From Candidatus Bipolaricaulota bacterium (GTDB taxonomy: Bacteria; Bipolaricaulota; Bipolaricaulia; Bipolaricaulales; Bipolaricaulaceae): a stretch of DNA of 54,169 nucleotides. The notes beneath the pieces were generated by a model. That model was not told where the DNA came from. It worked only from the letters and a program-made list of their open reading frames with translations, and ran no database searches. Location: assembly GCA_937921255.1 (NCBI GenBank), contig CAKZSO010000037.1, positions 1 to 54,169 of the forward strand, given 5' to 3'. Both the position numbers and the translations under genes were made by a program. This document shows positions 19,596-23,823 of the stretch, one piece after another (the first letter of the stretch is position 1; each line of letters begins with the position of its first letter).

Positions 19596-20993
19596 TCACC
19601 GCGCGGAGACGACCCCGCTGTGGAGAGGGCGGCCGAGGAGGGAGAGCGCCGCCTCCCACAGGCCCTCGGGGAACGTGGGGTGGGCGTGGACCGCCTCCGC
19701 AAGGTCCTCGGCCGTGAGACCGGCCTGGATCGCCAGGGTCGCTTCCGCGATCAGGTCCGAGGCGTGGGGGCCCAGGACCTCCGCTCCGAGGAGGCGCCCC
19801 TCCCCATCGGCGACGAGCTGAACGTGCCCCTCGGTTTCCCCCTCCGCCCATGCCCGGCCCAGGGCGACAAACGGGAACCGGGCCACCTTGAGGCCCCGGG
19901 CGGTGGCCTCGTCCACGGGTACCCCCACGAGCGCCACCTCGGGCTGGGTGAAGATCGCCTGAGGGATCGCCCCCTCTCCCGCGGAGGGAAGAGGGCGAGA
20001 CCTGAAGGTCGCCCCCAGCCGCTCGGCCACAAGAAGCCCCTCGTGGGACGCCTTGTGGGCGAGCATCCAGCCGCCCCGCACGTCGCCGATCGCGTACACC
20101 CCCTCAGCTGCGGCGAACCCCTCGCCTGTGACCACGACCCCCTTCTCCACCCTGACCCCCACGGATTCCAACCCCAGATCGGACGAGTTCGGCCTGCGAC
20201 CGACTGCCACGAGCACCGCGTCGCCGGGGATCTCCTCCTCGCCAGAACCCGTGGCAAGGACAACCCCGTTCGGGGTGAGGCGCTCGGCCCGGGCGCCCAA
20301 CCGCACCCCCACGCCTTGGCCCGCCAGGGCCCGCCGCACGACGCTCTCCCCGCGGCGGGAGAGGCCCACGCCGGGAAGGAGGCGGTCGAGGAGTTCCACC
20401 ACCGTGACCTCGCTCCCGAGCCGGCGGTACACCGTGGCGAGCTCGAGGCCGATCACCCCCCCGCCGATCACGACGAGGTGCTCCGGCACGCGCCGAAGGA
20501 ACAACGCGTCCGCCGACGACCACACCCGCTCTCCGTCAAACGGGAACCCGCGAAGCTCGATCGGGCTCGAACCAGTGGCGAGAACGATCGCCTCGGCCCC
20601 GAGGGCGAGCTCGCCTCGATCCGTCTGGACCCGCAGCTGTCCGGGGCCGACGATCCTCGCCACCCCAGCGAGCACCTCGACCTTCGACCCCGCAAGGAGC
20701 TGTACGACGCCGGACCGCAGGCCCCCAATCACCTCGTCCACCCACGCCCTGAGCCGCCCAAGGTCCGCCTCGGCCGCAAGTGTGATCCCCATCCGGGCAA
20801 ACGTCGCACGGCGGCCCAGCGGGGAGGTGGCCACGTAGAGGGCCTTGGTGGGGATGCAGCCCTCGTTCAGGCACGTCCCCCCAAGGTGGGACTTCTCGAT
20901 TAGAACCGTCTCAACCCCGAGCTGCCCGAGCCGCCGGGCCGCCACGTAGCCGCCCGGGCCGCCACCGACCACCGCAACCTGCGTCCTCTCCAT
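19596..20993 (-). CDS. lpdA: Dihydrolipoamide dehydrogenase
   Basis: The 465-residue flavoprotein has the FAD motif VAVVGGGPGGYVAARR, the redox-active cysteine pair GGTCLNEGCIPTK (C41, C46), the NAD motif VVIGGGVIGLELATVY, and the C-terminal HAHPTFPE holding the catalytic His-Glu pair. All catalytic parts are intact. It re-oxidises dihydrolipoamide of 2-oxoacid dehydrogenase or glycine cleavage complexes; none of the partner genes is nearby, so it probably serves complexes encoded elsewhere. The ATG at 20993 lies 9 bases after a TACACT box and has no ribosome site. Confidence 0.93.
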   Translation of the reverse strand: MERTQVAVVGGGPGGYVAARRLGQLGVETVLIEKSHLGGTCLNEGCIPTKALYVATSPLGRRATFARMGITLAAEADLGRLRAWVDEVIGGLRSGVVQLLAGSKVEVLAGVARIVGPGQLRVQTDRGELALGAEAIVLATGSSPIELRGFPFDGERVWSSADALFLRRVPEHLVVIGGGVIGLELATVYRRLGSEVTVVELLDRLLPGVGLSRRGESVVRRALAGQGVGVRLGARAERLTPNGVVLATGSGEEEIPGDAVLVAVGRRPNSSDLGLESVGVRVEKGVVVTGEGFAAAEGVYAIGDVRGGWMLAHKASHEGLLVAERLGATFRSRPLPSAGEGAIPQAIFTQPEVALVGVPVDEATARGLKVARFPFVALGRAWAEGETEGHVQLVADGEGRLLGAEVLGPHASDLIAEATLAIQAGLTAEDLAEAVHAHPTFPEGLWEAALSLLGRPLHSGVVSAR

Positions 20994-21002
20994 GTCCCAC
21001 GG

Positions 21003-21008
21003 AGTGTA
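21003..21008 (-). promoter_or_regulatory. -10 box of lpdA, leaderless arrangement
   Basis: TACACT on the minus strand ends 9 bases before the lpdA ATG. A weak GTGACG lies 18 bases upstream. With no ribosome site between, the mRNA probably begins at or within about three bases of the start codon. Confidence 0.5.
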
Positions 21009-21064
21009 CCGGGCCCTACCCCCTCGCGTCACCAGGGGACGGTACAGAGCCCTGCAGTTCCAAC

Positions 21065-22049
21065 CTAGGCCAACCCCGTAGCGCCGGCCGCAAAGCCCAA
21101 CCTACCCGATGTCGGGTGGAATCGTCCCGTGCAGTGGGCCGGGAGATCGTTACCAACCCTGAGAGCCCAGTCGGCACTGATCCGGCCGAGCGCCAGCGGC
21201 GGAAAGAGCGCGACCTCGCGGGGTAGGCCGTGGCCGAGCTCCCGTAGCACCTGGAACGGTGGTTTCCCGTCCATCCCCTCCCCGTAGTGCGGCCGCTCCA
21301 GGTTGTAGGAGCACACCCAACCCGCGGCCTTGTGGAGGAACCCCGCTTCCGTCGGCACCTGGTCCAGGAACGGTAGGTCAAACCCCTCGTCGTCCGTGCG
21401 GTGGGATCTCTCCACCCGACCGTTGTGTTCCTTCTTCCCCAGCGGGATCCGGGCCAACCTCGCCCCCAGGGGCGCGTAGTACCTCTCCTGGAGCCGGTGG
21501 AGCTTCTGGGGGTTGCTGCCCCCGAACTCCTCCCCCCAGTCCGTCGGCCACACCAGTTCTCCCCCAATCCCGTGTCCCCTAACCCACCGCATCCCCAGTC
21601 CCATGAAGCACAACCCGTTGGTGAGGGTGATCTCGTGGCTCCACGCCAGGAACCGCAGCCTCGTCCGCCCCTCGAGGAACGTCCACAGGTACCGGGAAAA
21701 CCTCCGTTTCGCCCGATGATCCCACCGGTTCGTTCCCAGCGCCCCCTTGTCGGGCACGTCCTTCACGTCCACCTGGGCGAGCGTGAACGGCTTCTCCTCG
21801 TCCCACGCCGGGAGGGCAGGGTAGAACGCCTTTCTCTTCGTCGTGTGCCCCCTGAACCCGTTCCGACGGAGGACGGGGCGGATCGCGTGCGGGGAGAGGG
21901 CGAGCCCCTTCTCCTCCATCGTCACGGTGGCGCTCGACCCACTTGCGGACGACGTTCCGCGACGTGTGCCCCCTCCGGGCGGCCTCGGCGGCCCTCCCCG
22001 TCTCCGGGTACGCCTCCCTGAGCCTCATCCTTGCCGCCTCCCGGTTCAT
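21065..22049 (-). pseudogene. Eroded IS481-type transposase
   Basis: The N-terminal helix-turn-helix (from ATG 22049: NREAARMRLREAY to TSRNVVRKWVERH) and the DDE integrase core are in different frames. The core reads in the frame from about 21927, starting EEKGLALSPHAIRPVL. It keeps candidate catalytic residues: Asp in QVDVKDV, Asp in PTDWGEEFGG and Glu in HNGRVERSHRTDDE. Compared with the family, roughly 40-50 residues between the two parts are missing, so a deletion has joined them out of frame near 21930. I could not find convincing terminal inverted repeats. It marks an old insertion between lpdA and the lipoprotein gene. Confidence 0.8.
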
Positions 22050-22229: not shown

Positions 22230-22247
22230 TTTTGGATGGAGGTCTAC

Positions 22248-22862
22248 ATGAGAAAACGTCTGCTATTCGGATTCTCCGCCCTTGGCGCTCTCCTCTTGAC
22301 GGGCTGCGTCCCCCCCGTGGACGTGCTCCAGGCGGTCATCACCACCACCCCGGGTCCCGCGCAAGGCGAGTACCCGCTCGCGGTCACCTTCGACGCCAGC
22401 CGCTCGAGCGGGGACATTGTTGAGTACCTCTGGACCTTCGGCGACGGCGCGACCGGCTCCGGCGTGATCTCGTACCACACCTACCGCGAGCGCGGGACGT
22501 ACCCCGTGTTCCTCACCGTGGTCGACCGGAGCGGGGCCACCCACCAGGCCCAGACGACGGTTTCTGTTCACTCCAAGAGGCCGATCGCCCAGTTTACGAT
22601 CTCCCCCTCGGCCTTCATCCGGGCCGGCGAGGAGGTCACGTTCAACGCCAGCGCCTCCTACGACCCCGACGGAACGGTCGCCGAGTACCTGTGGGACTTC
22701 GGCGGCGCCTGGCGTTCGACGAGCCTTGCCACCGTAACCCATACGTTCCCCGAACCGGGGCAATACACCGTCACCCTGATCGTGAAGGATAACGAGGGGG
22801 TTCTGTCCGACCCGGCCATGAGGATCGTTCCCGTCAGCCGCGGCGGCTGCTGTGGGAACTAG
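22248..22862 (+). CDS. PKD-domain lipoprotein
   Basis: The start at 22248 is placed by GGAGG 5 bases upstream; the ATG at 22236 is less likely. The 204-residue protein has a lipoprotein signal peptide ending LLLTGC, so Cys would be lipidated. Two PKD repeats follow, each with the hallmark core: VEYLWTFGDG (first) and AEYLWDFGG (second), with YHTYRERGTYPVFLTV and HTFPEPGQYTVTLIV strands. PKD domains are extracellular Ig-like modules for protein or polysaccharide contacts. The C-terminus ends in GGCCGN. The stop overlaps the start of the DNA repair fusion gene by 11 bases. Confidence 0.88.
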   Translation: MRKRLLFGFSALGALLLTGCVPPVDVLQAVITTTPGPAQGEYPLAVTFDASRSSGDIVEYLWTFGDGATGSGVISYHTYRERGTYPVFLTVVDRSGATHQAQTTVSVHSKRPIAQFTISPSAFIRAGEEVTFNASASYDPDGTVAEYLWDFGGAWRSTSLATVTHTFPEPGQYTVTLIVKDNEGVLSDPAMRIVPVSRGGCCGN

Positions 22863-23823
22863 GGTCGAGATCCCCGACGTCGGACGCACCCTGCGCGCGC
22901 TCGTCCTCGCCATCCCTCCGGGCAAGGTGACGACCTACCGCGCGCTGGCCGAAGCGCTCGGCGACCCCGGCACCGCCGGGTTCGTCGCCCACTGGCTCTC
23001 CTCGGCCGACGCCGAGGGCCTGCCCGTCCACCGGGTGGTCCACACCTCCGGCGCCGTGGGGCGCGGAGGAGGAAGGACCCCGAACGAAGCCGCGGCGAAG
23101 CTGGCCGCCGAAGGGGTGCGGGTGGTGGGGTCGCGCGTCGAGCCCCTCGCCCGGTATTTCGTCTGGGAGTTCCCGACCGACCGGCCGCTCGCCCGGCTCC
23201 AGCAGGAGCAGGCCGAGATCGCTGAACGGGCGATCCTTTCCCCCCTCCCCGAAGTGCGGACCGTGGGCGCCCTCGACGTCGCCTACACCGGAGAGGAGGC
23301 CGTGGCCGCGTTCATCCTCGCCGAGTGCCACGGGGAGGTCCTCGAGCAGGCCACCGCCCGAGTGCCGGTCGAGTTCCCGTACATCTCAACCTACCTCGCG
23401 TACCGCGAGCTCCCCGCCCTCCTCGCCGCGGTCGAGGCCGCCGCGAGGCTGGGCTTGCAGGCCGACGTTCTCCTCGTGGACGGAAACGGGATCCTGCACC
23501 CCCGCCGGGCTGGGGTGGCAACCCACCTTGGGGTCCTCCTCGACCGGCCGACCGTCGGGGTGGCCAAGGGCCACCTCTGCGGCCACGCCAACACCGCGGG
23601 GATGGCAATCGGCGAGTGGCGACCGGTGATCCTGGACGACGAAACGGCCGGAGCGGCGATCCGCACCGACCGAAACCAGACCCTGTTCGTCTCCCCCGGC
23701 CACCGGTGCGACCTCGAGGGCGCGATCCGCCTTGTCCAGGACCTCACGGAGAGGACCACCCTCCCGCCGCCCCTCCTCTGGGCCCACGAGCTCGCCGCCG
23801 AGACCGCCCGACCCGGGGAGTAA
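22852..23823 (+). CDS. Alkyltransferase-like domain fused to endonuclease V
   Basis: A 323-residue fusion beginning with GTG at 22852. Residues 8-95 match the DNA-binding half of O6-alkylguanine alkyltransferases (IPPGKVTTYRALAEALG, arginine-type helix). However, the active site PCHR has become PVHR (58-61), with Val59 at the cysteine position, as in alkyltransferase-like proteins that flag but do not repair lesions. Residues ~115-320 are endonuclease V: LDVAYT (D142), YLAYRELP (E186), LLVDGNGILHPRR (D210, H216) and GVAKGHL (K239), with spacing like bacterial Nfi. Endonuclease V cuts beside deaminated inosine. A fused but cysteine-active version is known from the archaeon Ferroplasma. Here the damage sensor may guide or widen cleavage. 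Confidence 0.9.
   Translation: MGTRVEIPDVGRTLRALVLAIPPGKVTTYRALAEALGDPGTAGFVAHWLSSADAEGLPVHRVVHTSGAVGRGGGRTPNEAAAKLAAEGVRVVGSRVEPLARYFVWEFPTDRPLARLQQEQAEIAERAILSPLPEVRTVGALDVAYTGEEAVAAFILAECHGEVLEQATARVPVEFPYISTYLAYRELPALLAAVEAAARLGLQADVLLVDGNGILHPRRAGVATHLGVLLDRPTVGVAKGHLCGHANTAGMAIGEWRPVILDDETAGAAIRTDRNQTLFVSPGHRCDLEGAIRLVQDLTERTTLPPPLLWAHELAAETARPGE

Follow-up and report, generated by a model that had tools for sequence, protein, structure and literature searches.

We have analyzed a window of 54,169 nucleotides (the whole stretch, contig CAKZSO010000037.1 of a Candidatus Bipolaricaulota genome) and, within it, a gene in which a domain of the alkyltransferase (AGT) fold is fused to an endonuclease V (EndoV). 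The genes and positions that matter here are the following:

19599-21032, minus strand: Pyr_redox (dihydrolipoamide dehydrogenase-like) gene
21065-21925, minus strand: transposase-like open reading frame with a weak rve_3 match, below the cut-off, between the Pyr_redox and PKD genes
22236-22862, plus strand: upstream gene with two PKD domains and a lipobox (LTGC) recognized by eye; its stop lies 11 bases inside the fusion start
22852-23823, plus strand: fusion gene, cysteine-less AGT-type domain plus endonuclease V; GTG start, 323 amino acids, open reading frame
22870-23169, plus strand: domain of AGT/ATL (alkyltransferase-like protein) fold, residues 7-106 (PF01035 at 16-89; AlphaFold2 model of 1-110)
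22978-22980, plus strand: Gly43, arginine-finger site (human R128), by alignment
23026-23028, plus strand: Val59, site of the alkyl-accepting cysteine, by alignment
23065-23067, plus strand: Gly72, Tyr or Phe in 113 of 116 cysteine-bearing fusions, by alignment
23185-23805, plus strand: endonuclease V domain, residues 112-318 (PF04493; Z 31 to Thermotoga EndoV 2w35)
23275-23277, plus strand: Asp142, EndoV catalytic position, by alignment
23407-23409, plus strand: Glu186, EndoV catalytic position, by alignment
23479-23481, plus strand: Asp210, EndoV catalytic position, by alignment
23497-23499, plus strand: His216, EndoV catalytic position, by alignment
23566-23568, plus strand: Lys239, EndoV catalytic position, by alignment

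The PKD gene is likely to be on the same transcript as the fusion, and its product is likely exported. In the family of the window (f1 in our sample of 100 genomes of the phylum Bipolaricaulota), 32 of 33 loci had a related PKD gene at 90 bases or less from the aligned start of the fusion, the remaining locus ending at a contig edge, and 24 f1 loci had the same 11-base overlap. Of 18 fusions examined outside f1, none had a related gene directly upstream; less than 1 kb of upstream DNA is available for two of these 18. In genomes of the same genus that lack the fusion (G001, G008 and G010) the best PKD match was only 44% identical, compared to 72% in G009, so the PKD gene and the fusion may be lost together. 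The Pyr_redox and PKD genes were found side by side in several relatives (e.g., L105 and L031).

Both Pfam matches of the window protein were far above chance. The AGT DNA-binding domain (PF01035) was found at residues 16-89 with 46.9 bits (cut-off 27, E 2.5e-12), and Endonuclease_5 (PF04493) at residues 134-312 with 186.4 bits (cut-off 23.4, E 6.2e-55). Residue 59 is a valine within the motif LPVHRV, and in the translation there is no cysteine anywhere in residues 1-110. A preliminary description of this DNA had pointed to PVHR in place of PCHR in the N-terminal domain, and both the translation and the family-wide picture given below agree with it; the domain cannot accept alkyl groups in the known way. 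The protein lacks the PCHR acceptor cysteine by which an AGT is recognized, and with it the active alkyltransferase that is a trait of the AGT-EndoV family. Its make-up is that of an ATL: it has the fold of the AGT C-terminal domain, another residue in place of the cysteine, and no AGT N-terminal domain. D142, E186, D210, H216 and K239, which we take to be the EndoV catalytic residues, are all there as had been described, and all 59 aligned fusions extending into the EndoV domain have them; the nuclease half appears intact. Two substitutions had been overlooked, Gly43 at the arginine finger and Gly72 at what we take to be the position of human Tyr158.

The AlphaFold2 model of the whole protein had a mean pLDDT of 94.3 and a pTM of 0.90, values that fit a two-domain protein with both halves in a fixed packing. 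In the fold comparison the EndoV half matched Thermotoga maritima EndoV 2w35 with a Z of 31.3 (rmsd 1.7, 216 aligned) and E. coli Nfi with a Z of 29.1, while the N-domain matched the S. pombe ATL with a Z of 13.0. No AGT chain was found among the best 50 rows of this whole-protein comparison. When residues 1-110 were modeled alone (pLDDT 86.3), the Z values were 12.8-13.0 against the ATLs 3gva, 2kif and 3gx4 and up to 11.3 against AGTs, and the alignment with the ATLs reached residue 106, spanning their C-terminal part.

Among the 100 Bipolaricaulota genomes, 57 carried the fusion and one more a truncated copy that lacks the EndoV half; in families f2 and f7 the fusion was absent. EndoV itself was present in 60 genomes, in a single copy each, and in 57 of the 60 it was fused. 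The named relatives were Candidatus Bipolaricaulota and Acetothermia, with one close relative filed as Caldisericota. As had been proposed, we inspected the cysteine site of the homologues, and none of the 34 f1 members has the cysteine. Their residue 59 was Val in 27, Ala in 3, and Gly, Leu, Ile and Ser in one each, and the N-domain was present in all 33 full-length f1 fusions. A near relative in the single-contig genome G009, 80% identical, has V59 and A43. Outside f1, residue 59 was Ser in 9 and Cys in 1 of the 10 f3 fusions, Ser in 1 and Cys in 4 of the 5 in f6, and Cys in 9 of 9 in f4, f5, f8 and f9.

There are also archaeal relatives. Starting from two of them we covered a class of 80 genomes and 389 genomes of their phylum, and analyzed 116 fusions that come from part of all matches, so that their number is at least 116. 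The carriers are presumably Thermoplasmatota. The cysteine was kept in 14 of 57 Bipolaricaulota copies and in 102 of 116 archaeal ones, where the remainder had Thr (4), Ser (3), Leu (2), Val (2) and one each of Trp, Ile and Arg. Many of the cysteine-bearing fusions have Tyr, Phe or Trp instead of the His after the cysteine (PCYKV, PCWRV, PCFKI); such sites are found in families f3-f5 (L037, L041, L042, L045, L046, L048 and L049) and at archaeal loci. The archaeal genome G179 has two different AGT-EndoV fusions (L171 and L221), both with Cys, plus a third PF01035 gene, and some archaeal genomes have a second, weak PF01035 gene in addition to the fusion (L225-L229); its motif is IPCHRL or IPCHCL, and the position aligned with the finger lacks arginine. 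The plasmid collection had 21 records related to EndoV, and the 15 listed all lacked the N-terminal domain and none covered 80% of the query; the same was true of the 3 records of the phage collection, and a scan of viral contigs gave no relative.

In a tree of 59 fusions (57 bacterial and 2 archaeal) every family with more than one row formed one side of a branch, as expected of vertical descent. The cysteine state changed 3 times on this tree, and omitting the Cys and Arg columns left this unchanged. In a rapidly built tree of all 173 fusions (57 Bipolaricaulota and 116 archaeal) a single branch (SH-aLRT 97) separated the two sets, and a direction-free parsimony count gave 9 changes of the cysteine state, an exact number that is unsure given the long branches flagged. 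L005, L021 and L028 had been dropped from the first alignments as copies of L031, L032 and L033, and G027, which ends at a contig edge, was left out of the trees. Cysteine would be the ancestral state, because of its spread. Judging from the sequences, the window protein is a member of the AGT-EndoV fusion family (two domains, in the same order and of common descent), and the fusion is inherited across the Bipolaricaulota and common to Thermoplasmatota archaea.

ATLs are generally regarded as descendants of AGTs that lost the cysteine. We compared 103 N-domains over 98 columns, a short alignment with long branches flagged and L168 left out. In the resulting tree the stand-alone proteins fell into two clades, the 8 ATLs (100/99) and the 22 AGTs (100/95). 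The f1 N-domains grouped with the other fusions, adjoining the cysteine-bearing fusion of G068 (99/94), and outside the ATL clade. Therefore, their lack of cysteine parallels that of the ATLs and does not come from shared descent with them; by this tree, the f1 N-domain descends from a cysteine-bearing AGT-EndoV fusion.

In the passages of PMC10779285 that deal with base flipping, R128 is the arginine finger that flips the base, and ATLs are described as keeping both the arginine finger and the tyrosine. The window protein has neither and is thus not simply an ATL. Residue 43 was Arg in 115 of 116 cysteine-bearing fusions, in 13 of 14 archaeal cysteine-less ones and in 32 of 43 bacterial cysteine-less ones. 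Gly, Pro or Ala replaced it in 11 of the 33 full-length f1 members, among them the window (Gly43) and six of its eight same-genus relatives, and the state of the finger changed 3 times on the 59-row tree. The Ser-bearing f3 fusions had retained the finger in 9 of 9 cases. Of the 173 fusions, 113 of the 116 with the cysteine carry Tyr or Phe at residue 72, versus 4 of the 57 without it, so a change of the cysteine state is usually accompanied by loss of this pocket aromatic. Tyr29, a base-flipping helper in AGTs, is present in the window protein and was retained by 26 of 31 f1 rows.

We have examined which other genes of this kind accompany the fusion. The genome of the window has three PF01035 genes: the fusion, a stand-alone AGT (PCHRV, arginine finger, Asn hinge) and a stand-alone ATL (PWQRV, with its own arginine). 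A single EndoV gene, the fusion, was found in it. A separate AGT was present in 38 of 43 cysteine-less versus 4 of 14 cysteine-bearing Bipolaricaulota genomes, counting among the 38 an unverified one (G019, locus L160) that ends at a contig edge before the motif; the five cysteine-less genomes that had none are all 87% complete or less. In archaea, any second PF01035 gene accompanied 10 of 14 cysteine-less versus 24 of 102 cysteine-bearing fusions. In the class of 80 genomes, 13 genomes with the fusion had a further PF01035 match, and in 12 of them all such matches were weak. Taken together, these are 48 of 57 versus 28 of 116 (Fisher 4.7e-14, a test that ignores relatedness). With tree-aware independent pairs, run both with and without the weak second matches, 3.3 of 6 pairs agreed and 0.4 disagreed (median p 0.25, not significant), so the link stays only a trend. 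Cysteine loss goes with a separate AGT in a way that is suggestive, not proven. We had at first favored the separate AGT as the explanation of the cysteine loss, and gave it up on the non-significant pairs. These pairs, the 4 of 14 cysteine-bearing genomes with a separate AGT and the 5 of 43 cysteine-less ones without it all count against the reading that we prefer below.

There is prior evidence of fusions of this type. The active fusion of Ferroplasma to which the preliminary description referred is indeed reported in PMC10779285, which cites Kanugula et al. 2005 for the AGTendoV of Ferroplasma acidarmanus and Tubbs et al. 2009 for an archaeal ATL-EndoV fusion. Like the former, the window protein consists of an AGT C-terminal domain and EndoV, and its tree joins Thermoplasmatota fusions; unlike this reportedly active alkyltransferase, it carries Val in place of the cysteine and Gly in place of the arginine finger. 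With the archaeal ATL-EndoV, as cited there, it shares an AGT-fold domain without cysteine next to EndoV. AGT-EndoV and archaeal ATL-EndoV fusions are already in print (PMC10779285), and the Val-type bacterial form differs from them. In the literature searched, whose scope left out most subscription journals, we found no account of a bacterial or Val-type AGT-EndoV fusion. One archaeal fusion of our set (L220, genome G178), with IPWHRV and an arginine finger, is perhaps of the ATL-EndoV kind reported earlier; the window protein differs from this Trp type in being of the Val type, without finger, bacterial and with a separate cysteine loss on the tree. It resembles the stand-alone ATLs (S. pombe Atl1, E. 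coli, Vibrio) in fold (Z of about 13) and in having neither cysteine nor AGT N-terminal domain, and departs from them in the missing arginine finger, in its place outside their clade and in being fused to a nuclease. With the EndoV of Thermotoga maritima (2w35) and E. coli Nfi it shares fold and catalytic residues, to which the N-terminal domain is an addition.

EndoV is established as a family that nicks DNA near deaminated bases. The reading that we prefer, although we see it as evenly poised between right and wrong, is that the cysteine-less domain serves EndoV as a DNA-contacting or structural module while alkyl repair takes place elsewhere. The ancestor would have been a bifunctional AGT-endonuclease V fusion, whose AGT half would have lost the cysteine and the aromatic residue of the pocket at the base of f1, and later, in the lineage of the window, the arginine finger too. 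Reversal of alkyl lesions would then fall to the separate AGT of the genome and their flagging to the separate ATL. The fusion would work chiefly as the only EndoV found, nicking DNA near deaminated bases, and the dead AGT domain would be retained for its packing on the nuclease and its help in holding, bending or scanning the DNA. We infer here the nuclease activity, its substrate and the DNA-holding role of the N-domain. The cysteine has been lost repeatedly among relatives, and therefore the dead half is probably retained for another job. Two features count against a mere scaffold, the conserved former active-site loop and the retention of Tyr29, and a conserved loop around the lost cysteine could mean that the pocket is still in use.

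The preliminary description had proposed another job, a lesion sensor of ATL type coupled to a nuclease that could cut at alkyl lesions. This is only partly supported. Its premises (no alkyl transfer, an intact-looking nuclease) hold, and the relatives that it asked about lack the cysteine throughout the family; the identification as an ATL sensor is what suffers from Gly43, Gly72, the position outside the ATL clade and the separate ATL and AGT. Nor is the idea of a nuclease directed to alkyl lesions by an ATL-EndoV new, since for archaea PMC10779285 speculates that EndoV stands in for the excision-repair nuclease. Applied here, the domain would bind O6-alkylguanine in the manner of an ATL and EndoV would nick next to it, in place of recruiting excision repair. 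The fold slightly nearer to ATLs than to AGTs (Z of about 13 and 11, aligned to residue 106), Tyr29, the PxHRV loop, the printed archaeal precedent and the finger kept in the f3 Ser fusions (9 of 9) all favor this proposal. In the window protein, however, both the arginine finger and the pocket aromatic are missing, the genome already encodes an ATL and an AGT, and the domain falls outside the ATL group. A domain whose finger is gone and whose pocket is altered is unlikely to bind flipped O6-alkylguanine in the ATL manner, and we regard such a sensor as rather doubtful here. It fits the Ser-type f3 better, because f3 keeps the arginine.

The recognition helix of the f1 domain has also changed. 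All 31 f1 rows have Phe at residue 44, versus Ala in 14 of 16 cysteine-bearing rows; residue 48 is Trp or Phe in 30 of 31 versus non-aromatic in 15 of 16, and residues 73-74 are bulky. Together these residues would form a new site, and the f1 domain could read another base or a DNA shape there and hand the lesion to EndoV. That Phe44 is fixed in f1 and that the active-site loop is conserved without its nucleophile are in line with such a repurposed pocket, which we consider quite improbable, the same residue pattern also fitting simple packing. A wider form of the idea, in which the dead f1 domain would be a new reader of base or DNA structure that steers EndoV, through the rebuilt helix (Phe44, Trp/Phe48) and without the arginine finger, to lesions that it would miss alone, and in which cysteine-less fusions arise repeatedly (nine state changes), typically with loss of the pocket aromatic, seems to us unlikely.

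A further reading is a relic without function, which drifts and persists since its deletion would break the gene. The ratio of N-domain to EndoV distances was 1.07 in f1, so that the domain moves at about the pace of the EndoV half and, in favor of a relic, somewhat faster than in most cysteine-bearing groups (0.72 in f5, 0.80 in f4 from one pair, 1.03 in f6). In archaea, nearly all with Cys, it was 0.69, and in f3, with Ser, 0.70. However, 33 of 105 N-domain positions were at least 95% identical across the 31 f1 rows, and the loop that once held the active site, with P58, H60, R61, V62, V63, S66 and G67, was among the most conserved parts. The domain is also predicted to fold with high confidence and is never missing from the full-length f1 fusions (33 of 33). 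On these figures the f1 N-domain is under selection, perhaps slightly relaxed, and a relic is very improbable. An error of sequencing or assembly behind Val59 or Gly43, which the fragmented 1.29-Mb assembly (86% complete) might suggest, is so improbable that it can be set aside, given V59 and A43 in the G009 relative, and a base error at residue 59 is ruled out by the absence of Cys throughout the family (0 of 34).

The loss of cysteine that is thought to underlie the ATLs recurs as separate events inside one fusion family, and this fusion extends across a phylum of bacteria in which nearly all EndoV-bearing genomes (57 of 60) have the enzyme in fused form. Cysteine-bearing and cysteine-less forms (Val, Ser, Thr, Ala, Leu, Trp and others) are thus available for side-by-side assays. 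Specifically, f3 (Ser, with the finger kept) and f1 (Val, with the finger often lost) separate what is predicted of a sensor from what is predicted of a scaffold.
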